Below, piece after piece: positions 18,981 to 45,237 of a stretch of 64,000 bases of DNA. The notes under the pieces were generated by a model. That model was given only the letters and a program-made list of their open reading frames with translations, had not been told where the DNA came from and did not search any database. A program made the position numbers and the translations under genes. The number at the start of each line of letters is the position of its first letter. Positions within the stretch are counted from its first letter, which is position 1. Origin of the DNA: Burkholderia sp. 9120 (GTDB lineage: Bacteria; Pseudomonadota; Gammaproteobacteria; Burkholderiales; Burkholderiaceae); the NCBI RefSeq assembly GCF_000745015.1, contig NZ_JQNA01000001.1, forward strand, positions 310,001 through 374,000. The letters run 5' to 3'.

Positions 18981-18981
18981 G

Positions 18982-19515: not shown

Positions 19516-19523
19516 GGCTCACC

Positions 19524-21047: not shown

Positions 21048-21105
21048 GATGCAACCTCATACTGTTCAGGGCAGATTTTGCAAAGAGCACCGCGACCGCG
21101 ATACG

Positions 21106-25025: not shown

Positions 25026-25037
25026 GACCGTTCTCTC

Positions 25038-29133: not shown

Positions 29134-29143
29134 GGCATCCTCC

Positions 29144-29848: not shown

Positions 29849-29855
29849 CTCACAT

Positions 29856-31034
29856 TCATTCGCCCTGCCGACCCAGATTCGCCCGCGCTACGCGCTGGTA
29901 AGCGGGCATCGGGCCGCTCGCCGAAGCCCCTCCGCCTGATCCGCTGCTGCCATCACCTGAGCCGGTACGGTTGCGAATCTTTCCGCCAGGCGATGAGCCG
30001 CCACCGCTGCGAGAGAATGCCTGCGCGAGTGCGCTGGCTACACGTCGTGCGGCAAAACCCGCCACGAACGCACCAAACCCGGACAACGTGGCACCACCGG
30101 AAAGTCCCGATGCAACCGATGGCAACTGCCAGCCGACCATCGCGAGAAAGACCCCGGTTGCGAACAGGCCGATCGCTGCAGCGCCCGCCGCGGCATCGTT
30201 GAGAGCAGCGGTAATGCCTCGCATCACAGCCGATGGGTCTGCGCCCGGGGACGCACTAGTGACATTGAGGGGAGTTAGATCGGCAGAAAATGCCGTGAGC
30301 GCCATCCCGAGAAAGGCAGCGACGAGCACCTGCAACAAGGCGTAATTGGCAACCTTCGCGGTCCACGCTTCGAAGAAGCGCGCAGTTGGCGCAAATGCGG
30401 CGCAGGCAATGAAAATAGGACCAAGCCCAAGCACGAGATCGAGCAGCATCCTCGCCATCGCCACTTCGAAAGCAAGGACGATGAGGAAGATCGAACCGCC
30501 GAGTGCGGCGATGATCCCGCAGAGGAAATCACCGATGGCGGCGGCGAGTCCGCTGACACTGATCCCCTCGTGCGTCGCCTTGTCGAAGTAGGCGTCCATC
30601 ACTAGGTCGATCTGCTGGTCGTAGCAGTCGAGCGTCTGGTAGATACTGGTCGCGCTCTGACCTGTCGCGCTGCCGCCATTGACCGACCCGCATCCTGAAT
30701 TGCCGCCGCCCGACGTATTAGCCGCGTTCTGGATCGTCTGGGCGAGCCCGGCCGTCGCACCGTTGATCGCCGTTACGACCTGCTGCTGGTAGATGCCGGC
30801 GTTCAACGCGAACGCGAGCGTGATGGCGACCTTTAGCCCCCGCCAGGCAAACGCCGGGACAGCTTCGTGAGCTTCGCCCCGCACCACTGCCAGACCATAG
30901 GCAACGACCCAGATCGTAACGGACGTAGTCACGATGGGCACAAGCGCACTGGACAAGTCCGATGACACGTTCGTGATGTAGGTGGACATACCGTTTTCGA
31001 GCGTGCCACCGACAGCGGTAAAGAGACCGCTCAT
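29856..31034 (-). CDS. virB6: VirB6 polytopic channel protein
   Basis: 392 residues with about six membrane helices between 30 and 340. It contains the Trp-rich TAKVANYALLQVLVAAFLGM segment typical of VirB6/TrbL. The Gly/Ser-rich C-terminus (SGGGSSPGGKIRNRTGSGDG) is disordered. VirB6 forms the inner-membrane path for DNA. Its start overlaps virB4 by 4 bp. Confidence 0.92.
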   Translation of the reverse strand: MSGLFTAVGGTLENGMSTYITNVSSDLSSALVPIVTTSVTIWVVAYGLAVVRGEAHEAVPAFAWRGLKVAITLAFALNAGIYQQQVVTAINGATAGLAQTIQNAANTSGGGNSGCGSVNGGSATGQSATSIYQTLDCYDQQIDLVMDAYFDKATHEGISVSGLAAAIGDFLCGIIAALGGSIFLIVLAFEVAMARMLLDLVLGLGPIFIACAAFAPTARFFEAWTAKVANYALLQVLVAAFLGMALTAFSADLTPLNVTSASPGADPSAVMRGITAALNDAAAGAAAIGLFATGVFLAMVGWQLPSVASGLSGGATLSGFGAFVAGFAARRVASALAQAFSRSGGGSSPGGKIRNRTGSGDGSSGSGGGASASGPMPAYQRVARANLGRQGE

Positions 31035-33499
31035 CGCACACCTCCCGCTCCGGGAGGAAATGGCAAGCGCAGCCTGCCATCCGCCGCGCGCCGCCGGGCG
31101 AGCTGCTCGTGGAAGACCGGCAACCAGTCGTCCGGTGCATCGCCCACCTGCTCGCGGATCGTGTCGAGCAACTCCACGTTGTCGGTCGTTCCCGACAGCA
31201 CGTCGAGTACATCTCCGAGGTCGGATAGATCAAGGCGTCCAATGGCCGAGCCATGGCCCTGCTTGACCAGGAACAGCCGACTGTTCTCGCCAAGATTGCG
31301 CACGATGTTGAATTCGGCCTCGGTCAGCTTGAAACCACGCACATAATCGTCGTAATCGGCTCGTGGATTCGGCAGGAAGAAGAAAGTTGCGCTCTGCTCG
31401 ATCAGCGCACTGGCGATCTCGCTGTGCAGCACATCCGCAGGCGATTGCGTATCGAAAATCCCGAGCCCGTTCTGCTTGCGGATCGTCTTCTGCTTGTTCT
31501 TCGCAAAATCGGTGAAAACGGGATCGGAGAGACGCTTCCAGAATTCGGTCATCACGTAGATGAAGCGCCGGCCGTCGATCAGACTTTCGGTCAAGTGCAG
31601 CAGATACATCGTGACCGGCGTCGAGACCTCCGCATCGTCAAGCAACTCGGTATCGTCGAACCCGAACAGTCCCGAGCATGCGAAATCAATACGGTCGGTC
31701 GGGTTATCGAATACCCAGCCGAGGCGCCCGCCCGCGCACCATTTGGCGAGGCGCGCATGCAGGCTGTTCTCGCCCACGTTCGGCAGAAGTTGCCGCACCA
31801 TGGAAAGCCTCCGCAGCGGCTTGTCCATGCGGGCAACTTCCCGTACGGCGCGCGAGATATCGAGTTCGTCCCTCGCGGGTAGCGGCACGCCGATATCGAC
31901 GAGCTTGCGCACGAGCCTTTCCAAGAAGTCGAGCACAGCCTCGGTTGGTTCCATCTGGAACGGGTTCAAACCAGTCGGCTCCCCGCGGCGGAACACGGTG
32001 TACACGCCGCCCATCGCGCGGACCGCAATCTCGGTACCGCGATCCTTGTCATACAGCACGGCGGTGATGCCGTATTTCATCGCCATCGCGAGTAGGAACA
32101 GCTCAAGCACCGTCTTGCCCGCGCCGGCCTGACCGATAATCTGGGTGTTGGCGAGCGCCTTCTCGTCGAGGGAGTGCTTCTTGTCGGGCGTGACGTGGAA
32201 ATTCAGATAAAGTGGCTGGCCGCTAGGCGTCTTGACGATCGTGATCGCCTCACCCCACGGATTACCATCACGCTTGCCGGTCGCGAAGTTATGCAGGCAT
32301 GCCAGTCCGCAGAAGTTCCGCGACGTGAGCTTGGCCTCACGCGGCCTGTAACGCCAGTTGCCCGGGAGTTGCGCGAACCACGCCGCGTCCGCAACGAGAT
32401 CGATGAGTGCCGTCTGGAAACCCGCATCGGCCAGTTGCGTACGCGCCTTCGCCACGCTTTTGGAGACTTCGTCCGACGTGTCGCCGAGCACTGCGAGCGA
32501 ATAGTGGTATTCGCCCAGGACGAAATCTCCGTTGATCAGGTCGTTGAGCGCCTGTTCCATCGCGTCAACCTGGGACACAGCAACATCCTCGCCGGCAATC
32601 AACTGGTTGCGCCGCCGCTCCAATGCCTCTTTCGCGCTCGGCTTGTCGAGGATGGTGAAGCTCTGTGTCTCGATGTACTCAAAGTCGCCGTACAGCAAGC
32701 CGTTGATCATTCCGGGCTCTGTGTCTTCCGGGTAGTCCTTCAGGTCGAGCATCGCGGCAAAGCGGGTCGCGGCCGGCATGCGGATCTCGATCTTCTCGGC
32801 CCCCACAAAGAGACGCGAAGTTGGCAGCCCCTCACGGATTGTGCCAGTCGGGACCGGCTCGGGCTCCCATGCAGCGTTCACCAGATAGCCAAGCAGTTCC
32901 AGGGTCGATGAATATCGGCGCGGGCGCCTGGTATCGCTGCTCTGTCTTGCATAAACGCCGAGCGCGACCGGATCGTAGGGCTTTAGACTCGATTCGACCT
33001 GGGCGGCCAGTTCCGCGATCACCTTCAGCGCGTCGTGCTGATCGCGTCGGATATCCTCGCGCGTGCGGCGCACGGCACGGCTGAAGACGCGACCAAGTTT
33101 CGTGCGGTTCGGCCGGTAGACAAGCGTCAGATACAGTTCGTTGGCCATCATGCGATAGCCGGAAAAGCTCGCGTAATAACGCGTCGCGAGTTCCTGGCAG
33201 AAGCGGTTGCCGTAGGGCATCGCGAAGTGATCCGACACACGCCGGCGCAAGCGGTGTGACCAGAGCGCTACGTGGCCGCCAGCGAGCCCGCGTACGAGCT
33301 GGTTGAATCCGTCGTGTCGCGCGAGGATGTTGGCCGGATCGGCTGCCTCGAACGCGATGCCGGCGATCCTCCAGATCTGCAGGTAGTCGCCCTCGCGTGT
33401 TTTGATGACGTGATCCGTCACATGCGTCGAGTACGGGATGTAGCCCGCAAGCGGGACTTCGCGGTTCGCCACGGCGACGAGCTGGGGCTCGGAGAGCAT
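31031..33499 (-). CDS. virB4: VirB4 ATPase
   Basis: 822 residues, full length for the family. The N-terminal CagE/TrbE-type half ends near 430; Walker A GQAGAGKT is at 456-463, and Walker B lies near FIYVMTEFWKRL. It is the large ATPase at the base of the channel. The ATG lies one base after the virB3 stop and its stop overlaps virB6, so translation is coupled. Confidence 0.96.
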   Translation of the reverse strand: MLSEPQLVAVANREVPLAGYIPYSTHVTDHVIKTREGDYLQIWRIAGIAFEAADPANILARHDGFNQLVRGLAGGHVALWSHRLRRRVSDHFAMPYGNRFCQELATRYYASFSGYRMMANELYLTLVYRPNRTKLGRVFSRAVRRTREDIRRDQHDALKVIAELAAQVESSLKPYDPVALGVYARQSSDTRRPRRYSSTLELLGYLVNAAWEPEPVPTGTIREGLPTSRLFVGAEKIEIRMPAATRFAAMLDLKDYPEDTEPGMINGLLYGDFEYIETQSFTILDKPSAKEALERRRNQLIAGEDVAVSQVDAMEQALNDLINGDFVLGEYHYSLAVLGDTSDEVSKSVAKARTQLADAGFQTALIDLVADAAWFAQLPGNWRYRPREAKLTSRNFCGLACLHNFATGKRDGNPWGEAITIVKTPSGQPLYLNFHVTPDKKHSLDEKALANTQIIGQAGAGKTVLELFLLAMAMKYGITAVLYDKDRGTEIAVRAMGGVYTVFRRGEPTGLNPFQMEPTEAVLDFLERLVRKLVDIGVPLPARDELDISRAVREVARMDKPLRRLSMVRQLLPNVGENSLHARLAKWCAGGRLGWVFDNPTDRIDFACSGLFGFDDTELLDDAEVSTPVTMYLLHLTESLIDGRRFIYVMTEFWKRLSDPVFTDFAKNKQKTIRKQNGLGIFDTQSPADVLHSEIASALIEQSATFFFLPNPRADYDDYVRGFKLTEAEFNIVRNLGENSRLFLVKQGHGSAIGRLDLSDLGDVLDVLSGTTDNVELLDTIREQVGDAPDDWLPVFHEQLARRRAADGRLRLPFPPGAGGVR

Positions 33500-33500
33500 G

Positions 33501-33821
33501 TCACGCCCTCCTTTTCAGGCGGACGGGCACGTAGGCATGCGCCCCCCAGTACCAGCGATTGCCCTGATGGAGCATCATCCGAAGGCGCAGCGCGTACTGA
33601 GCGAGGCGCTGGTCGTCATGGCGCGTGATCACACGCATCGCGACGAACACCGGAATCATCAGGAAGAGGATGGCGACGCCCAGCGGGGGACTCGCCAGCA
33701 GCGCCCAGATGGCCGGAATCAGCATACCGCCGCCGAACATCAGGAACGGCACAAGGGGTACGCCCCAGAGCATCGCAGGACGGGTGCAGCCCTTAAAAAC
33801 GGGATCCTTGAGAGGGTTCAT
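33501..33821 (-). CDS. virB3: VirB3 inner-membrane protein
   Basis: 106 residues from the ATG at 33821 (GGGAG 8 bp upstream); the frame is open beyond this but without similarity. The start MNPLKDPVFKGCTRPAMLWG is the classic VirB3 opening, and two adjacent membrane helices follow (about 18-60). VirB3 partners VirB4 at the inner membrane. Confidence 0.93.
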   Translation of the reverse strand: MNPLKDPVFKGCTRPAMLWGVPLVPFLMFGGGMLIPAIWALLASPPLGVAILFLMIPVFVAMRVITRHDDQRLAQYALRLRMMLHQGNRWYWGAHAYVPVRLKRRA

Positions 33822-33838
33822 GATTCGACTCCCAACGA

Positions 33839-34180
33839 TCAGCTTGTTGGGATCAGCATGCCGGCGATCACCGTCGCACAGCCAACGAAGAGTCCGCCGA
33901 TGAAGACGTTCGCGATATCGCCGAACCGGGCGTGCTGGAACATCATCCGGAAACCTGCCCAGATGATGGAAATCGAGCAGATCACGCCCCCCACGCCGAG
34001 CAAAGTCGTCTGGACTGTGTTCAGTAGCGTATTGACTTGCGAGAGTTGTGCCCACGCCGATTTCGAGAGCAGTAGCGTCGAGGTCGATACGGCAAGTTCC
34101 CTCGCCAACTGACGGTCCAAAACGATACGTTGCAACCACGAACCTTGCTCAGATATTTTTTTATGTAATCCTAAATACAT
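33839..34180 (-). CDS. virB2: VirB2 major pilin precursor
   Basis: 113 residues with GGAGT before the ATG. The long leader ends near SAWAQ (about residue 45), and two hydrophobic helices follow, LLGVGGVICSISIIWAGFRM and FIGGLFVGCATVIAGML, the pilin layout. Two Cys occur in the mature part. It is likely processed by signal peptidase and assembled into the conjugative pilus. Confidence 0.9.
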   Translation of the reverse strand: MYLGLHKKISEQGSWLQRIVLDRQLARELAVSTSTLLLSKSAWAQLSQVNTLLNTVQTTLLGVGGVICSISIIWAGFRMMFQHARFGDIANVFIGGLFVGCATVIAGMLIPTS

Positions 34181-34230
34181 GATTGACTCCTTTTCGCCCG
34201 CTAACTGCCCGCCATCACCTGAATCGCGGA

Positions 34231-34872
34231 TTAGAACACCACTGCGCTATTGTCTGGTTCACCTCCCTGCCCACCCGTCAATGCATCGTCTCGATCGGGC
34301 CACAGCGGTCGGCGAGCCACCGGATGCAGCCGGACGGGGTCAGCAGACATTCCGGAATCGACGGGCAACACCGGGATCGGCTCGATAGGAGGAACGGTGA
34401 TCGGGAACGTTGGAACGGGCTGCTGCACGTTCTTCATCACGCGTTGTACGTAACCCGTGCGATATCCCGTCGAAAAATCGCCGCTCTCATAGCAGGACAG
34501 GCTTGCCCGAAGCGCTGCCTGAGTATCAGCTTGTGCACGATGTGCGGACATGAAACAACGTTGGAGAATAGCAGCGCCGACCGCCACGTTGCGGCAGGGC
34601 TCGAACGCGTTTCGCTCCGTCAACCCGTAAGCGAGCCAATTAGCGCGGTTCACCTGCGCGAGCCCTGCGCTAAAATTCCAGCCGGTGGCCTCGAGTGCGC
34701 GCGTAGTGGCGATCGCTTCGGCCAAATTCGCTGGTTGCCGCTGCAGCCGGCCACGTACGACGCCAATCGCGTAGGGGTTAAATCCAGACTCGGTGCGCAC
34801 AAGCGCCGCCATTGTCATAGGGTCGATTTGCGGCGCGCACTGCTGGGCAAGCGTCATGAAGTCGAGCGGCAT
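34231..34872 (-). CDS. virB1: VirB1 lytic transglycosylase
   Basis: 213 residues from the ATG at 34872; the frame is open upstream into the trbM-like gene but has no similarity there. The catalytic Glu lies in LVRTESGFNPYAIGV, and the second motif is SAGLAQVNRANWLAYGL, as in VirB1. It opens peptidoglycan for the channel. No obvious signal peptide is visible at this start, which is unusual. The tail after 150 is Pro-rich. Confidence 0.9.
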   Translation of the reverse strand: MPLDFMTLAQQCAPQIDPMTMAALVRTESGFNPYAIGVVRGRLQRQPANLAEAIATTRALEATGWNFSAGLAQVNRANWLAYGLTERNAFEPCRNVAVGAAILQRCFMSAHRAQADTQAALRASLSCYESGDFSTGYRTGYVQRVMKNVQQPVPTFPITVPPIEPIPVLPVDSGMSADPVRLHPVARRPLWPDRDDALTGGQGGEPDNSAVVF

Positions 34873-34874
34873 TT

Positions 34875-35420
34875 TCAGTGCCCCCCGCCGAAACCATTCT
34901 CCTGCTGCTCCACCTGCTGGAGAAAAAGCGCTGCAGACTGTGTTGGGTTGTAGGACATCTGTGCACTCCCGGCGCCATAGAATTCGGTGATTGTCGGCAC
35001 CGGCCCCCTTACGCCCCACCAGACACGGGCATAGAGCTGGTCGTCGATATCGACATTGATCGCGCCGGAAGCGCCACACAGCAGTTCGCTCTGCTCCGCC
35101 CCGCCCCAGTACAGCAGGTCTTCACGGCAATAACCACTGCTTGCAAAGGTGTTGGTCGCAATCGTCCCTTGGGAGCTGTCAGCACCGAAACCGCAGGTCG
35201 GAAATGGATCGCCGTGGCGAAGCGCCCGCCATAGTCTTTCGATCGGCGGCACGCATTCGCTGTACTGTTCCGGGCCACCGGGGTTCGACAGGCACAGAAT
35301 CACTTGGCAACCCCAGTCGTCGGCATGAGCCATTGCCGAGGGAAACGCGCAAGTGGCAACCAGCGCGAGCGCAACGAAGGACCGGTAACTTGCGGCGTGT
35401 CGTGTCAAAGCAGCGCGCAT
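34875..35420 (-). CDS. TrbM-like exported protein
   Basis: 181 residues from the ATG at 35420, one base after the parA stop, with GGAGG upstream. A signal peptide ends at AMAHA (about 33). The mature start DDWGCQVILCLSNPGGPEQY followed by EC..PIERLWRALRHGDPFPTC resembles TrbM/KikA proteins of conjugative systems, rich in paired Cys. The exact role of TrbM is not known. Placement before virB1 fits. Confidence 0.65.
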   Translation of the reverse strand: MRAALTRHAASYRSFVALALVATCAFPSAMAHADDWGCQVILCLSNPGGPEQYSECVPPIERLWRALRHGDPFPTCGFGADSSQGTIATNTFASSGYCREDLLYWGGAEQSELLCGASGAINVDIDDQLYARVWWGVRGPVPTITEFYGAGSAQMSYNPTQSAALFLQQVEQQENGFGGGH

Positions 35421-35421
35421 G

Positions 35422-36243
35422 TCAGGCCTCCACGTCACAGGTGATTTCATCGAGACGCAAGTACCCAGTTAGCGCCGCGAAACAAGCCAGCATGGTCTGC
35501 CATGCCCTACGCGCAGTAGGTTCCCTTCCGACGACGTCCCCCACTGGCACACCCTCCGCCTGTGCCCTCTGGACCGCGACGAAGCGTGGAATCTGCAGAT
35601 ACCCGCCCGTTCGCCCCGGATCAGCAATTAGCCAAGGGCCGAACTGGGTCTCAATGGCGCGGGCGTTCTCGCGTCCGAGCGATGTTGCTTCCACCATGTT
35701 CGGTAGAAGGCCGACGAATTGCAGTGCGGGGTTCAGCTTTGCACGTATCTGCCGTACACCGTGCGGGCCATTGATCAGGTCGGCGACGCTGTCAAGCGAC
35801 TCCCGATTTAGTTGGATCGGACTCAACATTGCGTCGACCGTCGATTCGATGCAAAGGGCGCGCAGATCCGGGAGGGGGGGACTGTCGATCAGGCAGACAT
35901 CCGCCAGCTTCGCCACAACGAAAAGCAGATGCCTGACATTTGCGTAGTATCGCGCCCCGTCATCGCCAAGCCCCAGTGTCAACGACGGCACGGTACCCGT
36001 CGGCAACACCCAGAATCCCGGCGCTTCTACACCTCCCTGCTCACATTGTGTGATCGACTTTTCTCCGCTCAGCACGACGGCCCTACACCCCCGCATCAGC
36101 GAGGCAGTGCTGGATGGCGGCTCGGCCGCGTCGATAACAAGCACCCGCAGGCGCCGCACTCGATGCAGGTAATGGGCGAACTGGCATAGCATCGCCGTCT
36201 TACCGGCACCACCCTGTTCGGTGGCGATTAGAAGCGTTTTCAT
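35422..36243 (-). CDS. parA: ParA/MinD-like ATPase
   Basis: 273 residues. A deviant Walker A (EQGGAGKTA, 9-17) and an LIDSPPLPDLRAL switch segment mark a ParA-type ATPase. No parB gene follows, so it is not a standard partition pair. In this place, at the head of the transfer operon, such proteins are thought to stabilise the element or to position the transfer machinery. Its stop lies one base before the trbM-like ATG. Confidence 0.85.
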   Translation of the reverse strand: MKTLLIATEQGGAGKTAMLCQFAHYLHRVRRLRVLVIDAAEPPSSTASLMRGCRAVVLSGEKSITQCEQGGVEAPGFWVLPTGTVPSLTLGLGDDGARYYANVRHLLFVVAKLADVCLIDSPPLPDLRALCIESTVDAMLSPIQLNRESLDSVADLINGPHGVRQIRAKLNPALQFVGLLPNMVEATSLGRENARAIETQFGPWLIADPGRTGGYLQIPRFVAVQRAQAEGVPVGDVVGREPTARRAWQTMLACFAALTGYLRLDEITCDVEA

Positions 36244-36610
36244 GGTCGGTCACTCGCCTCAGGTGATGCGCCGAACCACTAACCTGTATCTGAGACGACG
36301 AACAACACGCCCGCGACGCCGGGAGACAAACCGCGGTTCAAAGCGGAATCTCGAGATGCGCTGCGGTAGAACGCAAAAAAGCCTGCGAATGCAGGCTTTT
36401 TCCAGATTCAGGCAGTCACGCCATTGGCAGATAGGTCAGTACTTCGGGGCCGCTAACGCGTACTCGGTCGTGCTATGCACGTTGACCGGGACAGATTGTT
36501 GAGATCAACTTTAGGACGGATTTATCCACGTTGCAAGGCCCTCTCCGCCGGCCAATTTCTCTCTGATTTCCAGCTCGCTCCAGGCGATTCCACAGCATTC
36601 CAAAATATTT
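36244..36610. other. Region upstream of the transfer operon
   Basis: 367 bp between parA and the next gene upstream. It holds the terminator at 36375-36401 and presumably the main transfer promoter. No gene seen. Confidence 0.6.
36375..36401. terminator. Rho-independent terminator (bidirectional)
   Basis: Stem GCCTGC / GCAGGC with GAAT loop, flanked by six A on one side and five T on the other, so it can act on both strands. It separates the regulator genes upstream from the transfer operon. Confidence 0.85.
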
Positions 36611-36898
36611 TCAGGCTCTTTCCTCATGCAGCAATCGAGCGAGCGCGGCTTTCGCTTGCGTGACCTCAAGTTCGTATCGGTACCAAGGCCGTTGGGGGAT
36701 TTTCAGGCGCCTGCAAATAACACCACGGCCAGCGCGCCACACGTACGCCATGCGCAACAATTCTTGGTGACGTGACGCAAGCCGACGCCACGCCGCCTCC
36801 ACGCGCGCAGCGTCCGCGGCATCACTCCACGCCTTGTCCGCATTGGCCCAGTTGCGCAGACGCTCGTCGAGCCGCAGTGCGCCGTCAGTCTTGCTCAT
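36611..36898 (-). CDS. Small helix-turn-helix-like protein
   Basis: 95 residues. It begins MSKTDGALRLDERLRNWANA, and the region LASRHQELLRMAYVWRAGRG with KIPQRPWYRYELEVTQAKAA looks like the helical region of phage antitermination or sigma-region-4-like proteins. The ATG lies inside the end of the AlpA-type gene (14 bp overlap), so the two are coupled. A role in control of the element is inferred only. Confidence 0.6.
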   Translation of the reverse strand: MSKTDGALRLDERLRNWANADKAWSDAADAARVEAAWRRLASRHQELLRMAYVWRAGRGVICRRLKIPQRPWYRYELEVTQAKAALARLLHEERA

Positions 36899-37136
36899 GG
36901 GTCGTCTCCCCTCCACCGTTGTCAGACGCCAGTGGCGAGCGGTAGCCTGCGGGATCGCGCAAAAAGTCATCGATGTCCCCTGTCCGCCACCCCACAGCAC
37001 GCACACCCAGGCGGACGGGCCGCGGAAAAGTTCCGTCTTTGATGCGTTGATAAATCGTCGATCGCGATAGCCCCACTTCACGTTCGACCTGCTTGCGCCG
37101 AAGAATCGCAAGCGAATGGCGTGTTGTTTCACTCAT
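36885..37136 (-). CDS. AlpA-family DNA-binding regulator
   Basis: 83 residues. The sequence RRKQVEREVGLSRSTIYQRI and DGTFPRPVRLGVRAVGWRTG is the winged helix pattern of AlpA (prophage CP4-57 regulatory) proteins, which control excision genes in islands. It is the likely regulator of this element. Confidence 0.88.
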   Translation of the reverse strand: MSETTRHSLAILRRKQVEREVGLSRSTIYQRIKDGTFPRPVRLGVRAVGWRTGDIDDFLRDPAGYRSPLASDNGGGETTHEQD

Positions 37137-37239
37137 GACAAACCCTATTGTTGTCGCCGGCGAAGTACCGGGCTACAGGGCTCATTCAAGCAATGGGATC
37201 AGGCGACGGGCAAACCCGTCATACCGTCAGGCTCCCCCG

Positions 37240-37800
37240 TCAGGTTCGCGGCCGCACGTGGTGCCGCATGTCGGCTTCCTTGAGCCAGTCTGGTCGAATC
37301 GCTGACGCGTACGTTTGTCCGCTGCGCGACGCTTCGCCATCGGGTTGAGCTCTGAGGTTTAATCGTTGGTCGATCGCATGGGCGACCACAGACGATTTCG
37401 GCGGATTGTTCTCGTCATAACCGGACCAGAAAGTGTGCATCACATCGAACATTCCCGAAAGAATTTCGGTAATAAAAGGTAGGTGAACCGTGATACCGTC
37501 GGAATGCTCCAACGGCCCGTCGCTTGTGCAGTGGCAGGTTTTCCATGCCGGAACCATCGCACGCAAAGACTCCAGCTCTCCCTCCTGCCGTTCCTCGATC
37601 GCGTGATGCAAAGCCACCGTGCGCAGCAGCGCCTTCCCCATTTCGGCTAACTGTCGGTCCTTTCCTCTTAACCGCTCTGTTAGCCGACGAACATCAGCTT
37701 CGGCCTGATCAACGCGTCGCCGCAATGCGTTAGTGTCAGATGCTGGAGCAGCTCCGTCGCGAGCATCTGGCGGCTGGTATGCACTATCTGAGTGATCCAT
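37240..37800 (-). CDS. Hypothetical protein with coiled coil
   Basis: 186 residues. A charged helical segment (about 25-65; RRRVDQAEADVRRLTERLRG) predicts a coiled coil. The second half contains TCHCTSDGPLEHSDGITVHL and a Trp/Phe-rich block around FDVMHTFWSGYDENNPPKSS. No family recognised. It is upstream of the AlpA-type gene on the same strand. Confidence 0.6.
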   Translation of the reverse strand: MDHSDSAYQPPDARDGAAPASDTNALRRRVDQAEADVRRLTERLRGKDRQLAEMGKALLRTVALHHAIEERQEGELESLRAMVPAWKTCHCTSDGPLEHSDGITVHLPFITEILSGMFDVMHTFWSGYDENNPPKSSVVAHAIDQRLNLRAQPDGEASRSGQTYASAIRPDWLKEADMRHHVRPRT

Positions 37801-38219
37801 GATACGTCCTCATTACCTGCAGCATTGCGCCGCATCACTCTTTACCCCCGGCTCCTCTCTGTACCACTACGGAACGATCGCATCGGCTATCGCTTTCGTT
37901 GACGCGCACCGGCCCATCGCGTGGTGCGATCACGCGCCCAACGTCCAACTTCTTTCTAATGCGTCGATCCGGTCGACATAAAACCGGTCTATATTCCACA
38001 CAGAATATCCATTGCTCAGACTTCCAACACCGCTCGCTGGACACGGGGGAGCGAAGCCTCAACGATCCCTCCGTCGGTGCAGCAAATATTGCCAACCGGA
38101 AGCGAGAGTTACAGCTATTGGCTGTCCAGTAAGCAAAAGTTTAGTCCGGCATTCCCAGGATCGGGGTAGCACCATTTTGCATTGACTTTTCGACCGCGCC
38201 ATGGTAGCCGGAGCTCAAT
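37801..38219. other. Divergent intergenic region upstream of mnmH
   Basis: 419 bp between two divergent genes. No gene seen. The promoter of mnmH must lie here; an AT-rich stretch near 37980-38010 is the best candidate. Confidence 0.5.
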
Positions 38220-39278
38220 ATGTACGATTTGGATACTCTGAAAAAGTTTGAGCTGATTATCGACGCGCGAAGCCCGCGCGAATTCGCCGAAGATCATTTG
38301 CCAGGAGCCATAAACCTTCCGGTCGTCTTCGACGACGAGTATGCAGAAGTCGGTACTACACACCGCACCGACCCTATGCGCGCCTATCAGATCGGTGTCG
38401 CTTACTCCCTGAAAAACATCGCTCGGCACCTCGAGCTTCCGTTCTTTCGGACCAGTCGGCGGATGTCAATCCTCGTTTATTGTTTTCGTGGCGGAAAGCG
38501 AAGCAAGCTTTGGGCAGACGCACTGGAAACAATCGGCTACAAGGTCGAGCGGCTTCCGGCGGGCTGGAAAGGTTATCGAAACTGGGTGCGTCAAACCCTT
38601 GACGAAGTCCCTAAACATTTGCAATTCAATGTGCTCTCTGGGCCCACCGGTTGCGGAAAAACTCGCTTGCTACTCGCGTTAAGGGAGGCTGGCGCGCAGG
38701 TCATCGATCTGGAGGCCCTTGCCTCGCACCGCGGGTCAATCATCGGGGCGATTCCGGGCCGGGCGCAGCCAAGTCAAAAAATGTTCGACAGCCTCCTGCT
38801 TGCAGAGATAGGTCGTCTAGACCTGGCAAAGCCGATGTGGATTGAAAGTGAAAGCAAGCGAATTGGGCGCGTTCAACTACCGACAGCGTTGTTTCAAAGA
38901 ATGCATGACGGACGTCTATTCGCCGTCGAGACCCTAATGCCCGAAAGGATCGCCATGTGGCGTCACGAGTATCCCCACTTCGAGAGAGACCCCGTGGGTC
39001 TGGTTGCCAAACTTAGCCATCTGAAGGGACTCCTAAGCGGAACGACGCTAGAGAAGTGGGTATCAATGGCTGAGCGTCGGGACATCGACGGTCTCTTTGA
39101 AAGCATCATGCGGGACTACTATGACCCCGCGTACCTTCGTTCGACAAAGAAAAATTATGTGCATACCGAGCATTCCATCACGATCCGACTCGAAACGCTT
39201 GACTCAACGTACCTAGCAAACGTCGCGAGACACCTTGTTGCAGAGACCGACGTTCTGACGTCGAACCCGCCTGAGTAA
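38220..39278 (+). CDS. mnmH: tRNA 2-selenouridine synthase (rhodanese plus P-loop)
   Basis: 352 residues, close to E. coli MnmH/SelU (364). The N-terminal rhodanese domain begins IIDARSPREFAEDHLPGAIN, and its active Cys is C88 in VYCFRGGKRS. The P-loop GPTGCGKT is at 141-148, followed by the DLEALASHRGSIIGAI signature. The family replaces sulfur by selenium in 2-thiouridine at the tRNA wobble base, by way of a geranylated intermediate. GGAG precedes the ATG. It is located among element genes rather than with selD, which is not in the window. Its 3' end overlaps the converging AlkB-like gene by 66 bp. Confidence 0.93.
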   Translation: MYDLDTLKKFELIIDARSPREFAEDHLPGAINLPVVFDDEYAEVGTTHRTDPMRAYQIGVAYSLKNIARHLELPFFRTSRRMSILVYCFRGGKRSKLWADALETIGYKVERLPAGWKGYRNWVRQTLDEVPKHLQFNVLSGPTGCGKTRLLLALREAGAQVIDLEALASHRGSIIGAIPGRAQPSQKMFDSLLLAEIGRLDLAKPMWIESESKRIGRVQLPTALFQRMHDGRLFAVETLMPERIAMWRHEYPHFERDPVGLVAKLSHLKGLLSGTTLEKWVSMAERRDIDGLFESIMRDYYDPAYLRSTKKNYVHTEHSITIRLETLDSTYLANVARHLVAETDVLTSNPPE

Positions 39279-40235
39279 AACTTTTACTCGTCGGTCCATT
39301 GTCGAAAACCAAAACGGCGGGAAAAGCGTCAGCAACAGCATCTGAAAGTAGCCGCCGGGTAAGGTGACTCGTTGCGCGGCAAGACCCAGAAAGGACACTT
39401 CACTGTCCAGATGATGAGCATTGTGGAATCCGTTGTTCACCAAGAGGCAATTGGACAACCAGAAGTCAACGTCCCATGAAGTGATCGCGGTACGCGAAAG
39501 GTCCGGGTCGAATCCGTAATGCTGCATGTACCCGACGGCCTCAACGACAAACACGCTGACAATAGCGTATCCGATGTAGAAAAGAGCGGTCTTCCATTGC
39601 AGGAACGCGGCCAAAACCAGCAACAAGATTGAGAAAAGTGCATTTCGAAAAAGACTACGCGGTACCCTGCCGCACGGGTAGGAATGCCGAGAAAACGACG
39701 CTATCAGAGCCGCTGCATAGGAGCGGCCAACATGACGCCAGACCGATGTGCCCAATGACGCCGTCGAGCCGAACTGCGGATTTCCAACGTGTTGATGGTG
39801 CAATCTGTGTGCAGCCCGGTAATGCGGGTAGCCGGCGATGACAAATGCTAGGTCACTAATTTGTTGCCATATTCTGGCTTGTCGGTGGGTTAGTTCATGC
39901 AGGTGCGCCATCGCAGTCGCGCCTAACATTCCGCATGCGACAGCAAGCCCTATCAGATTTATCCATGACGCGTTTGACGCACGATACGCTCCGATTGCCA
40001 CTGCTAAGGCCCAAGTGAGTGCGAACCAGCAGGGTACCTGATCTTCGTCTTTCTTCTCGATGGCTTGCCGCGATCGCGGAGCGCCTCGCCCTATCGCCGC
40101 GTCAAGAGCAGGAAGAACGAAAAGGACCACGGCCACAAATACCCACGGGCGTCCGACGGAAAACGAGATGCCCGCGACGATCGGAAAAGTGAGTGAGAGC
40201 CAAAACGCTCCACCCGAGTTACGCCAGAAGGTCAT
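39213..40235 (-). CDS. AlkB-like membrane diiron hydroxylase/desaturase
   Basis: 340 residues with several hydrophobic helices (10-45, 65-110, 198-235, 290-312). The His clusters of the membrane-bound diiron family are present in order: HELTH 113-117, HRLHH 143-147, QHYGF 238-242 and HNAHH 271-275. The layout is nearer to AlkB/XylM (HELTH...YMQHYG...HNAHH) than to plain acyl desaturases. It would use O2 and a reductant to hydroxylate or desaturate a hydrophobic substrate. No rubredoxin or ferredoxin partner lies next to it. Its start lies inside the end of the luxR-like gene (17 bp overlap), so the two are coupled. Substrate unknown. Confidence 0.85.
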   Translation of the reverse strand: MTFWRNSGGAFWLSLTFPIVAGISFSVGRPWVFVAVVLFVLPALDAAIGRGAPRSRQAIEKKDEDQVPCWFALTWALAVAIGAYRASNASWINLIGLAVACGMLGATAMAHLHELTHRQARIWQQISDLAFVIAGYPHYRAAHRLHHQHVGNPQFGSTASLGTSVWRHVGRSYAAALIASFSRHSYPCGRVPRSLFRNALFSILLLVLAAFLQWKTALFYIGYAIVSVFVVEAVGYMQHYGFDPDLSRTAITSWDVDFWLSNCLLVNNGFHNAHHLDSEVSFLGLAAQRVTLPGGYFQMLLLTLFPPFWFSTMDRRVKVLLRRVRRQNVGLCNKVSRDVC

Positions 40236-40959
40236 TCACTTCCGCGAACTTAACCGCTTCTGAGATGTGCGAAACCCCAAACTTATCCTTTATTTTTTTG
40301 TAATTTCCGTAGACGGTCTGGACTGAGACGCCAAGCTCACGAGCAATGTCCTCAGCGGTAAATCCACTTTTAAGGTAACCCACTACACGAAGATCCATCT
40401 CAGAAACACCGTGCGCCTCAAGGACCTCGCGTCTCGCCGTTCGGATGGACCAATCAAGCAATTCCATGGCGAGCGCCCTGAAATACAAGCGCTGCGCAGT
40501 GAGCCTCTTTTCCCCTACTGCCTGACTATCGTCGGAGCCGATGTACAGAACGCCCATGCGTTCTGTAGTGCTGGTATGGACGGGCATAACGATCCCACTT
40601 CTGAAGCCGTTTTTGCTTGCCGCCGCGAGCATTTCGCGCTGGCCCTGCGTTTCCACGAGGATCCTCGATCCAGTGATTGGTTCGGTGTTGTTTCGCGCGT
40701 ACTCCAAAAATGGATCCGTCATGTACCATTTATTGGCGTTATACATCTGGCACCATTCGGGACGGCAGCCAATGAGAAAACGATGCGTGGCGCGGCTGGC
40801 CGTTGTAGGACCGGGATGGAGGGAAACGAACACATACGACTCCCCGCCAAGCGCTGTGACGAGCGATCTTACGTAATCGGCTAATTCAGAGTCGTCCTTG
40901 GCGACCATGATTTTTTCGAAAAGTCTGCTTACTTCAGGGGACGTCTGTTGGCCAGTCAT
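40219..40959 (-). CDS. LuxR-type regulator with autoinducer-binding domain (solo)
   Basis: 246 residues. The autoinducer-binding domain covers about 15-165; a GerE helix-turn-helix follows at about 180-240 (SGFTAEDIARELGVSVQTVY). Of the residues conserved in TraR/LuxR, W57, Y61, D70 and P71 match W69, Y73, D82 and P83, and the RSG glycine is kept. The position of TraR W85 is Gly97. No luxI gene is in the window, so it is a solo and its ligand may not be a standard acyl-homoserine lactone. It is the third gene of the four-gene cargo operon. Confidence 0.9.
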   Translation of the reverse strand: MTGQQTSPEVSRLFEKIMVAKDDSELADYVRSLVTALGGESYVFVSLHPGPTTASRATHRFLIGCRPEWCQMYNANKWYMTDPFLEYARNNTEPITGSRILVETQGQREMLAAASKNGFRSGIVMPVHTSTTERMGVLYIGSDDSQAVGEKRLTAQRLYFRALAMELLDWSIRTARREVLEAHGVSEMDLRVVGYLKSGFTAEDIARELGVSVQTVYGNYKKIKDKFGVSHISEAVKFAEVNDLLA

Positions 40960-40997
40960 ATCCTCACCCTCCTCAACCCCTTCACGCGCTCGCCTTG

Positions 40998-41255
40998 CTA
41001 TTCGACCACGCGATTTTCTACAAGGTGACGCCTAACTTCGTAATACAACGGAGCCAGTTCTACCGAATAAGGGTCCGCAGTTGCGAATCGGTGTAAATCC
41101 CGCAAGGCAGTAATCGGAAGGACTTGAATGGACGCCGTGTGATCCCTTTCGATGACCCGTCGCTCGAGAGAAAAGCCGCGCACTGTCCTGAACAAAGTAA
41201 GCACGACGTGTTCCCCGCCGACATTAAGTCGACGCTCAAAAACAAGACTCTTCAT
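40998..41255 (-). CDS. 85-residue hypothetical protein of the cargo operon
   Basis: Start at the ATG at 41255 (GGAG 6 bp upstream); the frame opens earlier but overlaps the zinc-ribbon gene. It begins MKSLVFERRLNVGGEHVVLT and is mixed in charge, probably beta-rich at the start and helical at the end (YYEVRRHLVENRVVE). No family recognised. Its start lies within the end of the zinc-ribbon gene (20 bp overlap), and luxR begins 38 bp later. Confidence 0.65.
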   Translation of the reverse strand: MKSLVFERRLNVGGEHVVLTLFRTVRGFSLERRVIERDHTASIQVLPITALRDLHRFATADPYSVELAPLYYEVRRHLVENRVVE

Positions 41256-41511
41256 CGTCGGCTCCGCTAGGGCGATTGCGATGGCCACATGAAGAGCAAG
41301 CGATTTTCTCGGGATCGATTTCCGAGATGCTCGTGATAAAGTCTTCGGATCCACAAGCGAGACATTCGACAATCAATCCGTCGAACTCGGTGCCGCAGCA
41401 CTGGCAGGTGAGGCGGTGAACCTCTCCCGCAGCGAGGACTTCCCAACTGTCTTCCATTGGGACACTGCACTTGGGGCAAAGAAACCCCAGCTCGGATATT
41501 ACGTTTGACAT
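41236..41511 (-). CDS. Small protein with two zinc-ribbon-like Cys clusters
   Basis: 91 residues. Four CxxC pairs occur at 12/15, 36/39, 50/53 and 72/75 (CPKC, CQCC, CLAC, CSSC), enough for two zinc sites. No enzyme domain. Possible roles are an RNA/DNA-binding or metal-delivery factor. It opens the four-gene cargo operon with the 85-aa protein, the LuxR solo and the AlkB-like enzyme. No family name can be given. Confidence 0.75.
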   Translation of the reverse strand: MSNVISELGFLCPKCSVPMEDSWEVLAAGEVHRLTCQCCGTEFDGLIVECLACGSEDFITSISEIDPEKIACSSCGHRNRPSGADDEESCF

Positions 41512-41673
41512 GTTCGAAAGCTTTATGAAACAAATCGCTTTGCGACAAGTAACAATTCAGCTTAGCACTGTCCGATTTCGTCCGTGCAAATAGTGTGGAA
41601 AACGTCGAGCCGAGCGCCCATCAAGCCCGTCTTCTAGACGGCCCGCAACGGTCCGGTCGGTGAGCGAAAGATC

Positions 41674-41722
41674 GCGGCCCCATCAGCGGTACCGACGTCG
41701 AAACTGGGTTTGCTGGGGCCGC
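41674..41722. promoter_or_regulatory. Perfect 9-bp inverted repeat
   Basis: GCGGCCCCA at 41674-41682 pairs with TGGGGCCGC at 41714-41722, 31 nt apart, directly before the heptamer repeats. Could be an RNA stem or protein site. Confidence 0.45.
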
Positions 41723-41729
41723 AGCAAAT

Positions 41730-41785
41730 CGCAACGCGCAACGCGCAACGCGCAACGCGCAACGCGCAACGCGCAACGCGCAACG
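41730..41785. repeat. Tandem heptamer repeat, (CGCAACG) x 8
   Basis: Eight exact copies of the 7-bp unit CGCAACG. Intergenic, so changes in copy number would not alter a reading frame but could change spacing. No spacers, so not CRISPR. Confidence 0.95.
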
Positions 41786-42132
41786 ACCTCATTTTTAAAT
41801 AGATAGCGCGAAAAGCAGCTCGCCGGAGCGACTTGAACGAGTTTGGGTTACTCCGTTCAATCTCTAACCGCCGTTAACATCCGGATGTATTTATGTAAAA
41901 AAATGCATACACTTCGCGCGGCAAGTCATATCTTCCTTCTAATTCGCGCTTACGCCAACCATTCGAGTCCTCTCCTAGAGTCAAACGATGTTTGACAAGA
42001 TAAATAGGAATCCGATTCATCAAGAGAGATTTTCGACGCACTACCAAATTCTGTTTCTTGCCGTCCAGTCCAGCGTCAACATTGTGATAAGAGTGCAAAC
42101 GGGTGGATTCTTAAGCGCACAGAAGTTCGAGC

Positions 42133-43431
42133 TCAAGACATGTACTCACGAGTCTTGGCTGGCTTTGCCAGCGCCAGGACCCTCGCCTTTGGATTCGTAG
42201 CAATCCAGCCGTCCAGCATATCTGCCCATGCCTGGAGCATCGTCCTCCGCTGCTCTGCATACTCCGCCTTGTTGTAGACCGCGCGCACGCCACGCTGTTC
42301 GTGAGCGAGGCATTTCTCGATCCAGTCGGTGTTGAACCCTGCTTCGTGCAACAGCGTGCTGGCCGTTCGACGCAGATCGTGCACAGTGAAAGGATCAAAA
42401 TCTGCCCCGCCGTCGCGTATCAGCTTGACCGTGCTGTCAATGACGCGGTTCAGAGTCGCCATACTTATTGGGGAGGCCGTCTCATAGCGACCGGGATGCA
42501 CGTACGAACTCGCCCCGAAGCACGTCTTGAATGCGACCAGAATGTCCAGAGCCTGTTGGCTCAAATAGACAATGTGGGGGCGACCGGCCTTCATCCGTTC
42601 CTTCGGAATTGTCCACACTGCGGCGTCGAAATCTATCTCACCCCACATCGCCAGAATGAACTCGGATTTGCGCACCAGCGTGAGCAGCATGAATCTGATA
42701 GCAAGACGCAGCGTAGGCATCGTCGGCGTCTGTTCCAATGCACTGAAAAACACGTGGATTTCGGCAGGCGACAGTGTGCGATCGCGCGGCTTGAAGCTGG
42801 CGATGGCAGACGGGCGGATGGCCTCCGCAGGATTGTCCACCTTCAGTCCCCGCGCCTGCACGAAACGGTAAACCTGCAGAACGATGTCGCGCGCCTGCAC
42901 GGCAGGGGCCGCGGCGCCCCTCTCCTTGATCTTCTCGCAGCGCGCCATCAGTCGTGCGGGCGTGATCTCTTCCAACTTCAGCCGGCCAAATTCCGACGCG
43001 AGATTCCGCTCGTATACCGATTTGCGCATCGCTCGTGTGGAGTCGGCAAGAGCAGTCTCCACAAAGTATTTCTCCGCCCACCTACCAAACGTCAGCGCTT
43101 CAGTCGCCTCGACCCGTTTCTCGACTTTCGCACGTGACGGGCTTTCGCCGCGTTGGATTGCTCCGTAGGCTTGGTCGCGTAGAAGGCGGGCTTCCGGGAG
43201 GCTAATAGCCATTCCGAATCCGAGTTCGTCCGGCCTGCGCGGCTTCCGTGCGGAAAGTGATGGATCGTAGCGGCCTATAACCAGGGTTTCCCGGCGACCG
43301 TTCACCCGGTAGTCGTACCGGAAGCTCACCGCGCCTGAAGGCGTCACTGCCGCATATAGCCCGCGCTGATCGGCAACCTTGTAGATCTTCTGAGCCGGCT
43401 TCAGCGCTCGTAATTGCATGTCTGTGAGCAT
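42133..43431 (-). CDS. int: Tyrosine recombinase / element integrase
   Basis: 432 residues from the ATG at 43431, with GGAG 5 bp upstream. The N-terminal DUF4102-type arm-binding domain (QLRALKPAQKIYKVADQRGL) is followed by the catalytic domain with R254, HDLRR 351-355, H377 and Y386. It belongs to the P4-type integrases used by genomic islands. It is transcribed away from guaA, 222 bp from the guaA stop. It carries out insertion and excision at the guaA 3' end. A cluster of repeats just upstream may be its operator or arm sites. Confidence 0.95.
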   Translation of the reverse strand: MLTDMQLRALKPAQKIYKVADQRGLYAAVTPSGAVSFRYDYRVNGRRETLVIGRYDPSLSARKPRRPDELGFGMAISLPEARLLRDQAYGAIQRGESPSRAKVEKRVEATEALTFGRWAEKYFVETALADSTRAMRKSVYERNLASEFGRLKLEEITPARLMARCEKIKERGAAAPAVQARDIVLQVYRFVQARGLKVDNPAEAIRPSAIASFKPRDRTLSPAEIHVFFSALEQTPTMPTLRLAIRFMLLTLVRKSEFILAMWGEIDFDAAVWTIPKERMKAGRPHIVYLSQQALDILVAFKTCFGASSYVHPGRYETASPISMATLNRVIDSTVKLIRDGGADFDPFTVHDLRRTASTLLHEAGFNTDWIEKCLAHEQRGVRAVYNKAEYAEQRRTMLQAWADMLDGWIATNPKARVLALAKPAKTREYMS

Positions 43432-43447
43432 ATGGACTCCTCGAACG

Positions 43448-43537
43448 TATACCGTCAACCGATACCGTCAGACTGATTTGACGGTATCGGATAGGGCCGT
43501 CCGAGGAAGAAATGTCGGTACCGTCACCGATACCGAC
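43448..43537. promoter_or_regulatory. Repeat cluster upstream of the integrase
   Basis: The core TACCGTCA recurs at 43448-43457 (TATACCGTCA), 43461-43470 (GATACCGTCA) and 43517-43526 (GGTACCGTCA). An inverted copy TGACGGTATC is at 43479-43488, and a diverged copy starts at 43528. The second and inverted copies form a 12-bp dyad CCGATACCGTCA / TGACGGTATCGG. Likely operator or recombinase arm sites. Confidence 0.6.
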
Positions 43538-43590
43538 ATTTCCATTTGGCATTGCCCGGATCACAGCAGACCACACCGGACAATAACCCT

Positions 43591-43612
43591 ATGTTTTTAA
43601 AGGGAAAAACAT
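43591..43612. terminator. Possible terminator hairpin between guaA and int
   Basis: Stem ATGTTTTT / AAAAACAT with a 6-nt loop. It is AT-rich and weak, but it is the only hairpin downstream of guaA. Confidence 0.35.
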
Positions 43613-43653
43613 GGAAAACCGGACCTCCCGGAACGACTTGGGAGCAGTCTAAA

Positions 43654-43680
43654 TCATTCCCACTCGATCGTTGCCGGCGG
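43654..43680. other. Probable attachment site of the element (guaA 3' end)
   Basis: Integrases of this kind insert at the last codons of guaA and rebuild the gene end. Here guaA is intact, and the integrase starts 222 bp past its stop, so the junction lies at or near these bases. No second copy of this sequence was found to the left, so core length is unknown. Confidence 0.5.
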
Positions 43681-45237
43681 TTTCCCCGAAATGTCATACA
43701 CCACCCGGTTAATCCCGCGCACTTCATTAATAATGCGGTTCGACACATGCCCCAGCAGTTCATGCGGCAGATGCGCCCAATGCGCGGTCATGAAGTCCAG
43801 CGTCTGCACTGCACGCAACGCGACCACGTACTCATAAGTGCGCCCGTCGCCCATCACGCCGACGCTCTTCACCGGCAGGAACACCGCGAACGCCTGGCTC
43901 GTCAGGTCGTACCATGACTTGCCGGTTTCCTTGTCGATCGTGGTACGCAGCGTCTCGATGAAAATCGCATCCGCGCGACGCAGCAGATCCGCGAAATCGC
44001 GCTTCACTTCGCCGAGAATCCGCACGCCCAGACCCGGGCCCGGGAACGGGTGGCGATACACCATCGACGGCGGCAAACCGAGCTTCACGCCGAGTACGCG
44101 GACTTCGTCCTTGAACAGTTCGCGCAGCGGTTCGAGCAGCTTCAGGTTCAGCGTCTCCGGCAGGCCGCCCACGTTATGGTGGCTCTTGATGGTATGCGTA
44201 CCCTTCTTGCCCTTGCCGGCCGATTCGATCACGTCCGGATAGATCGTGCCTTGCGCGAGCCACTTCGCGTCGCTCAGCTTGCCGGCTTCGGTCTGGAACA
44301 CTTCGACGAATTCCGCGCCGATGATCTTGCGCTTCGCTTCCGGATCGGTCACGCCGGTCAGCTTGCGCAGGAACACTTCGCTCGCGTCGACGTGAATCAC
44401 CTTCACGCCGAGGTTATCGGCAAACAGCGCCATGACCTGCTCGGCTTCGTTCAGACGCAACAGGCCGTGGTCGACGAACACGCAAGTCAGCTGGTCGCCG
44501 ATCGCGCGATGCAGCAGCGCCGCCGCCACCGACGAATCCACGCCGCCCGACAGCCCCAGGATCACGTGTTCCTGGCCGACCTGCTCGCGAATCTTGGCGA
44601 CGGCTTCGTCGATATAGTTGCCCATTTCCCAGTCAGCCCGCGCGCCGCAGATCTGCAGCACGAAGCGCTCGATCATTGCGCGGCCCTGCACGGTGTGGGT
44701 GACTTCCGGATGCCATTGCAGGCCGTAGAAATGGCGCTGTTCGTCGGCCATCGCCGCGATCGGGCACGATTCCGTCGATGCCATCAGCGCGAAGCCCGGC
44801 GGCATTTCCAGCACCTTGTCGCCGTGGCTCATCCAGACCTTCAGCATGCCGTGACCTTCCGGCGTGGTGAAGTCGCTGATGCCTTCCAGCAGGCTCGTAT
44901 GATTGCGCGCGCGCACTTCGGCGTAACCGAATTCACGCAGATGGCCGTTGTCGACCTTGCCGCCCAGTTGCTCGGCCATGGCTTGCATGCCGTAGCAAAT
45001 GCCGAGCACCGGCACGCCGAGTTCGAACACCGCTTGCGGCACGCGCGGCGTGTCGGTTTCGGTGACCGAGCTCGGGCCGCCCGACAGAATCACGCCCTTC
45101 GGCGCGAAGTCGCGAATGAACGACGCATCGACGTCGTACGGATGGATTTCCGAATACACGTTGGCTTCGCGAACGCGACGTGCAATCAGTTGGGTGACTT
45201 GCGAACCGAAGTCGAGAATCAGGATCTTGTCGTGCAT
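43654..45237 (-). CDS. guaA: GMP synthase (glutamine-hydrolysing)
   Basis: 527 residues from the ATG at 45237 ([13 protein letters not shown]), the family start. The class I amidotransferase domain has the nucleophile Cys in [10 protein letters not shown]. The ATP-pyrophosphatase motif SGGVDSSV and the C-terminal dimerisation domain ending PATIEWE are complete. It converts XMP to GMP. The 3' end serves as an integration site for islands and is preserved here. Confidence 0.98.

Follow-up and report, generated by a model that had tools for sequence, protein, structure and literature searches.

A LuxR solo, a predicted AlkB-type oxygenase and a second MnmH paralog are inherited together, mostly on conjugative elements, in Burkholderiales

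Introduction

Why would a signal receptor, a membrane oxygenase and a tRNA-modifying enzyme be kept side by side on a mobile element? The question is raised by a stretch of 64,000 nucleotides from Burkholderia sp. 9120 (contig NZ_JQNA01000001.1, positions 310,001 to 374,000 of the forward strand), which we call the window; the host genome comprises 8.46 Mb in two contigs, C1 and C2. A first-pass annotation of the window, made from its letters alone, had described four minus-strand genes facing an mnmH gene: znr, for a small zinc-ribbon protein, small, for an 85-residue protein, luxR, and a gene for a membrane diiron oxygenase. The positions of the open reading frames confirmed the coordinates and spacings given there. 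znr and small overlap by 20 bp, small and luxR are separated by 38 bp, luxR and the oxygenase gene overlap by 17 bp, and the oxygenase gene and the facing mnmH2 lie tail to tail with an overlap of 66 bp that the first-pass annotation had not listed. The longest form of small in the reading-frame list has 124 residues from a TTG start; the 85-residue form is used here. Our data show that these five genes, referred to below as the unit or module, are inherited together, mostly on conjugative elements.

Linkage and distribution of the five genes

A scan of genome contigs with an oxygenase alignment found 16 loci in records titled Paraburkholderia, Caballeronia or Burkholderia. The order znr-small-luxR-oxygenase was kept in all 16, with mnmH nearby in each. 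In L004-L012 the mnmH and oxygenase genes meet tail to tail; in L013-L019 mnmH lies upstream and co-directional, and that of L014 is only a fragment cut by the contig end. The overlap of luxR with the oxygenase gene was 17 bp in L004-L012, L055 and L057, and 23 bp in L013-L019. Conserved order and overlapping genes across loci support the earlier view of one operon-like unit.

When all sources were combined, 25 loci from three families of Burkholderiales were available. luxR and the oxygenase gene were present in all 25, mnmH in 24 (including the contig-end fragment), znr in 24 and small in 22. mnmH was absent from L057, the 25th locus for znr (L153) matched a distant query only, and small was not found in the three most distant plasmids. 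L057 and a match in Pandoraea faecigallinarum (NZ_CP011808.2) agree in length and coordinates and were counted as one locus; the 25 loci do not include plasmid NZ_CP099646.1 of P. fungorum, which is known as matches only, and seven LuxR-only loci (L029-L031, L033, L034, L036 and L038) were left outside the comparison. Genomes with identical coordinates were treated as duplicates (G009 and G306 for L012, G270 and G308 for L014, G301 and G361 for L006, G305 and G400 for L011). The first-pass annotation had proposed co-occurrence across genomes as the check on its operon and scattered genes as its refuter; linkage was seen, and no scattering occurred in the 25 loci.

The association extends to distant relatives. 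Plasmids of Polaromonas sp. JS666 (Comamonadaceae), Massilia putida and Collimonas arenae (Oxalobacteraceae) hold mnmH, oxygenase and LuxR genes in the same tail-to-tail layout, with identities of 52-56% for MnmH, 24-25% for the oxygenase and 35-37% for LuxR. The Polaromonas plasmid also has, near the module, a gene annotated as iscB, for an RNA-guided endonuclease (L152:10898-12334).

Pairwise distances of mnmH, oxygenase and luxR were compared over 22 loci, and gave Mantel r values of 0.89, 0.94 and 0.96, the last for luxR and oxygenase, with none of 2000 permutations as high. The set includes near-identical loci, which favour a high r, and covers neither znr and small nor L014 (mnmH split over two contigs), L019 (frameshift) and L057 (no mnmH). 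Among 398 genomes of the host's family, taken in one draw, module-type MnmH was found in 8, module-type oxygenase in 8, and both in 7 (hypergeometric P 2e-13, a guide only, given that the host's own genome is one of the 7, that the genomes share ancestry and that the unit is mobile). The exceptions were G109, with the oxygenase but no module mnmH, and G001, with MnmH but no module oxygenase. The best 5 MnmH, 5 oxygenase and 2 VirB4 candidates were scored per genome, and further copies may have been missed. A protein search, which scored only the 7995 candidates sharing most words, gave oxygenase and LuxR match lists with ten contigs, matched by size, in common.

All five genes are under purifying selection. 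The ratio of nonsynonymous to synonymous substitution rates (dN/dS) against up to seven relatives was 0.06-0.21 wherever the synonymous rate (dS) was computable; dS was saturated in 9 of the 35 comparisons. This selection, the linkage in 25 loci across three families, the co-occurrence in 398 genomes and the Mantel correlation make it scarcely conceivable that the genes are chance neighbours or an artefact.

The LuxR solo and its PUR-like neighbour

The LuxR protein matches PF03472 (Autoind_bind, 1.7e-17) and PF00196 (GerE, 4.3e-6), and its best matches among solved structures are RhlR variants and LasR. No LuxI-type gene is present in the window, and the two Autoind_synth genes of the genome are both on C2. 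The protein is therefore a LuxR solo with no cognate luxI alongside, as the earlier annotation had it. Residues of TraR that mark a response to acyl-homoserine lactones (AHLs) are listed, in the available part of PMC4338825, as W57, Y61, D70, P71, W85 and G113. Mapped through the RhlR alignment, Y61, D70 and P71 are kept in 11 of 11 module LuxR copies, W57 and G113 in 8 each, and the position of W85 is Gly in all 11; the AHL-responsive set thus appears incomplete in the module proteins. TraR-type quorum regulation of conjugation likewise places a LuxR protein on a conjugative element; the module differs from it in having no luxI-type gene in the window and in the replaced W85, and control of the type IV secretion system (T4SS) by the module is putative.

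For the small protein, considered unknown by the first-pass annotation, structure prediction suggests a possible identity. Four strands plus a helix are predicted, a fold like that of a PUR repeat, and a PUR-like domain is fused to LuxR in eight other loci. We propose that small is a partner or co-regulator of the LuxR protein. The predicted strands and helix liken small to the PUR-repeat proteins Bpur and Pur-alpha, from which it differs by lacking a Pfam match and by being a partner or fusion of LuxR. We know of no PUR protein with a LuxR partner or fusion.

The fusions define a second type of module, which to our knowledge is not described in the literature. An EAL/GGDEF gene, the fusion, DctP and LamB/YcsF (PxpA) follow one another in L044, L045 and L159 (by Pfam for L045, as annotated for L159, and by likeness to L045 for L044), and L158 has a diguanylate cyclase gene followed by the fusion. 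The fusion modules (L044, L045, L157, L158 and L159) are mostly located just upstream of T4SS genes on other plasmids or elements. A separate small-LuxR pair at L041:8060-12750 is accompanied by a radical SAM protein, an MFS-type transporter (named by eye) and an S-adenosylmethionine-decarboxylase-family protein.

Upstream of znr, CTAAGCTGA and AGCTTTC blocks near the start codon stood out as conserved in alignments of loci of the first type. We considered a LuxR binding site common to the loci at this place and rejected it, because no conserved palindrome was seen in the alignments. A sigma-70 scan of 36500-43500 gave no promoter-like site, against 3.3 expected by chance. A short tandem run of the 7-base CAACGCG lies upstream of znr at 41738-41782.

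The oxygenase and the zinc-ribbon protein

The oxygenase matches PF00487 (FA_desaturase family, 1.2e-19), and proteins of its type are labelled fatty acid desaturase in public records. Its only PDB matches at E<=0.001 are the alkane 1-monooxygenases 8sbb and 8f6t. The His boxes align with 8sbb, and each of 10 aligned copies, the most distant at 24% identity, has all nine His of the AlkB ligand type. The nine-His diiron site indicates an AlkB-type membrane monooxygenase, and the earlier assignment as a membrane diiron oxygenase agrees with these matches. The protein is 26% identical to the host's other AlkB-like protein, and module-type oxygenases form a separate score class in the 398 genomes (360-593 bits, versus 147 bits or less for the remaining listed matches). 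It thus resembles AlkB alkane 1-monooxygenases by profile match and nine His, and differs in its own score class and in the lack of a rubredoxin in the unit. A remnant of a module-type oxygenase C-terminus, 52% identical over 48 residues and with two TGA stops, is found on the same contig as the window (L003, G000:C1:476977-477120).

Membership of the AlkB family could mean that the unit is degradation cargo, with an alkane or terpene hydroxylase, its regulator and mnmH as a passenger, and L010 has zinc alcohol dehydrogenase and aldehyde dehydrogenase genes 5-8 kb downstream (10178-12715). However, there is no rubredoxin, rubredoxin reductase or dehydrogenase among the five unit proteins, the four rubredoxin genes of the host are all on C2, the other contig, and the retention of mnmH in 24 of 25 loci is not what one would expect of a passenger. 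We consider degradation very unlikely.

For znr only weak zinc-ribbon matches were obtained. The CxxC pairs of one ribbon are about 20 residues apart, and znr is predicted to be a double zinc ribbon, probably with an accessory or regulatory role. The possibility that it is a rubredoxin was rejected on this spacing and on the profile test, in which znr had 17 listed families with E up to 1, a range in which HMMER filters drop most weak matches, and PF00301 was absent from them.

The second MnmH paralog

MnmH2 matches the NCBIfam equivalog NF008752 at E 8e-120, and the earlier identification of a tRNA-selenation gene facing the operon stands. Its implied status as an outsider does not, given mnmH in 24 of 25 module loci: mnmH2 belongs to the unit and is not a bystander. 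Compared with MnmH/SelU tRNA 2-selenouridine synthases, MnmH2 shares the equivalog match, the rhodanese Cys and Walker A, and differs in being a second, mobile protein about 40% identical to the host's own MnmH, the gene of which adjoins selD. Both copies were found in 17 of the 18 module genomes searched, where the host copy was 39-44% identical; the 18th is G109. These 18 hold two counted twice (16 distinct), and the genomes of L008 and L018 are outside the set. One selD over the cut-off was present in all 18 and in G000.

In a 33-row tree, which does not contain L014, 14 housekeeping copies were split by 100/100 branches from 18 module copies and G001. Across the 18 module and 14 housekeeping copies 77 columns are invariant, and the rhodanese motif Y87-C88-x-R90-G91-G92 and Walker A residues G141, G144 and G146-K147-T148 are invariant in both groups. 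In Salmonella MnmH, the Cys is needed for selenation and Walker A for geranylation, as stated in the available part of PMC4830565. The module protein is a second paralog, far removed from the housekeeping copies, that has retained its catalytic residues. The 53% identical MnmH of G001, a genome of 2.4 Mb in the same family, is encoded at L128:6457-7623 in a chromosomal-looking region near coaD-like and ferredoxin-like genes (named by eye). Because this sequence sits on a long branch, its position in the tree is uncertain, and the module copies cannot be said to form a single clade. No close relative of MnmH2 was found at E<=1e-85 in 369 genomes of the wider class, except in the host's own genome. 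In addition to its module and housekeeping copies, G312 has another MnmH sequence, a fragment with 66% identity over 186 residues.

Codon usage gave no sign that the unit favours codons read by geranylated tRNA, and tuning of this kind was rejected. In these small gene sets, G-ending codons in the unit versus eight T4SS-region genes made up 53% vs 79% for Lys, 53% vs 84% for Gln and 46% vs 54% for Glu.

The linkage of mnmH2 with the oxygenase gene persists in both gene orders and where the oxygenases are as little as 24-25% identical, and could reflect a single pathway. MnmH2 would put an isoprenoid on tRNA 2-thiouridine, and the oxygenase would hydroxylate the chain or the released thiol, giving a new tRNA modification or a tRNA-derived signal. 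AlkB-type enzymes act on C10 terpenes. The MnmH family transfers geranyl groups, but geranylation did not enrich tRNA at the Salmonella inner membrane (PMC4830565), and the L057 module has no mnmH. A pathway of this kind seems quite improbable. In a more specific form, the LuxR/PUR pair would respond to the product of this pathway, either an oxidised isoprenoid that the element installs on tRNA 2-thiouridine or an oxidised geranyl-sulphur or geranyl-selenium molecule released from it. This form is highly doubtful; if true, a conjugative element would be under the control of a signal derived from tRNA modification.

The mobile element

The element that carries the unit is, judged by its genes, integrative and conjugative (ICE); it has an integrase beside guaA, AlpA, ParA, T4SS genes and a relaxase (Table 1).

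Table 1. Genes of the unit and neighbouring features in the window
Feature	Position	Strand	Description
mnmH2	38220-39278	+	352 aa, second tRNA 2-selenouridine synthase paralog (predicted)
oxygenase gene	39213-40235	-	340 aa, predicted AlkB-type membrane diiron monooxygenase
luxR	40219-40959	-	246 aa, autoinducer-binding and GerE domains
small	40998-41255	-	85 aa with the start used, predicted PUR-repeat-like
znr	41236-41511	-	91 aa, four CxxC pairs, first gene of the operon
tyrosine integrase gene	42133-43458	-	PF00589 3.3e-20, adjoins guaA, end of the integrative element carrying the unit
guaA	43654-45285		named by eye from the reading frame
conjugation part	17967-37136	-	relaxase, coupling protein, VirB11-, VirB10- and VirB4-like proteins, lytic transglycosylase, ParA, AlpA (Pfam)

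Conjugation genes adjoin 22 of the 25 module loci. L005 ends at a contig edge but shares the ICE backbone genes, an integrase gene and alpA are present in L010, and L007 has a ParA-family gene and, by eye, recombinase-like frames, with no T4SS gene within its stretch. VirB4 copies at least 76% identical to that of the window numbered 38, and 2 of them go with the unit (the window and G361:C99). Inspection of 20 VirB4 neighbourhoods of 7-18 kb each found the unit in G361:C99 and none of it in the other 19; for the remaining 17 copies, its absence rests on the lack of a module-type oxygenase in those genomes. The unit is thus optional cargo in the window's ICE family, which agrees with the first-pass proposal of mobile-element cargo. 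Its GC content of 54%, versus 62% for the T4SS genes, fits cargo acquired later.

The slot upstream of alpA has other occupants. In 7 of the 20 neighbourhoods (L130, L131, L132, L133, L135, L142 and L143) it holds genes for a LysR regulator, another membrane desaturase, a predicted transporter with no Pfam match and an ACT-domain protein, as judged from a Pfam run on the L130 proteins and the L131 desaturase. A regulator plus a membrane desaturase-type enzyme therefore recurs in this slot.

No exact 14-mer of 43441-43760, from the integrase start to the 3' end of guaA, was repeated elsewhere in the window on either strand; the far end of the element may be beyond the window, or the att repeats may be shorter. 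With PADLOC (2023 library), three unit proteins gave partial matches at 1.5e-4 or weaker and the other two none. An anti-phage defence system was rejected for want of a convincing PADLOC model match.

The position next to conjugation genes in 22 of 25 loci suggests a conjugation switch, in which the LuxR/PUR pair would regulate the T4SS genes of the element and the enzymes would be accessory. The different fusion modules just upstream of T4SS genes (L044, L045, L159 and L158) are in line with this, as is the Brucella LuxR solo BlxR, which is reported to regulate a T4SS. On the other hand, the T4SS of the window's ICE family needs no unit, as the unit goes with only 2 of 38 VirB4 copies and none of it is present in 19 neighbourhoods, and its GC content is that of later cargo. 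We regard such a switch as rather unlikely.

Discussion

In the open-licence PubMed Central literature, represented mostly by titles and the beginnings of abstracts, no described system with this gene set was recognisable, as the first-pass annotation had supposed. Papers there on mnmH paralogs and ICEs, on LuxR solos, and on alkane monooxygenase with conjugation included none recognisable as describing the unit. We rate the unit as akin to known LuxR-solo-linked oxygenase operons, and the coupling to mnmH as the surprising part.

The closest parallel is QscR of Pseudomonas aeruginosa. In the available part of PMC6113619, QscR, a LuxR solo, is described as the direct activator of a single linked operon, PA1895-1897, with predicted fatty acid hydroxylase and desaturase domains; it delays quorum sensing by a mechanism that the paper, which defines the operon, leaves unresolved together with the operon's chemistry. 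Both systems have a LuxR solo adjoining genes of this kind, and in QscR one linked operon is bound. They differ in that QscR is divergent from its operon and the module luxR is inside, and the same part of the paper describes no znr, PUR-like protein or mnmH; the likeness is drawn from the descriptions of the two systems.

By this analogy we favour, tentatively, a mobile LuxR-solo operon that would work as QscR does with its operon, and to which a tRNA-wobble enzyme has been added. We favour it because the genes are linked in 25 of 25 loci and overlap, because mnmH, oxygenase and luxR are co-inherited (Mantel r 0.89-0.96; 7 common genomes of 8 and 8), and because the triad is kept on the Polaromonas, Massilia and Collimonas plasmids at 24-25% oxygenase identity. 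The ten size-matched contigs recurring in the oxygenase and LuxR lists, the nine AlkB His together with four host rubredoxin genes, and the rhodanese Cys and Walker A of MnmH2 also speak for it, as do the precedents of QscR for a linked operon and of Bpur for PUR. Borrelia Bpur enhances a repressor, according to the available part of PMC3764826.

For the ligand, substrates and output of the unit, and for every step beyond the genes travelling together and looking active, we infer the following. The LuxR protein, with its PUR-like partner as co-regulator, would sense a hydrophobic signal and switch on its own operon; the signal may be an AHL of the host or its neighbours, or another molecule. 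The oxygenase, fed by host rubredoxin, would act in the membrane, hydroxylating an acyl or isoprenoid chain and thereby altering lipids or the signal pool. MnmH2 may alter the wobble 2-thiouridine of tRNAs to a geranylated or selenated form. The net effect could be that host signalling and translation are retuned around conjugation or crowding.

Some observations temper this picture. The oxygenase gene of L019 (P. domus) is frameshifted at 8001-8952, with the other four frames open. Earlier work had reported binding of QscR at the rubredoxin reductase promoter, a link that would suit an AlkB-like enzyme if it held, but chromatin immunoprecipitation sequencing found the linked operon only (PMC6113619, available part). 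The QscR-linked operon also caused no change in labelled AHLs by high-performance liquid chromatography, in the same part of that paper, which counts against simple signal destruction. The last result also bears on a ligand circuit, in which the oxygenase would make, tailor or destroy the LuxR ligand in a feedback loop. The strict co-inheritance of luxR and oxygenase (r 0.96) and their overlapping frames are what such a loop would predict, but PUR-LuxR proteins occur with other enzymes instead, and the nearest tested analogue is QscR, with its unchanged AHLs. A circuit of this kind is possible but doubtful.

As a mobile parallel of QscR with strict co-inheritance, the unit would offer a compact setting for finding ligand and substrate jointly. 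The pairing of a PUR-like protein with LuxR, as two genes or as one fused protein, would, if the predicted fold is right, be a new and testable co-regulator arrangement. With a tRNA-wobble enzyme and a signal receptor moving on the same conjugative elements, gene transfer would be tied to both signalling and decoding.

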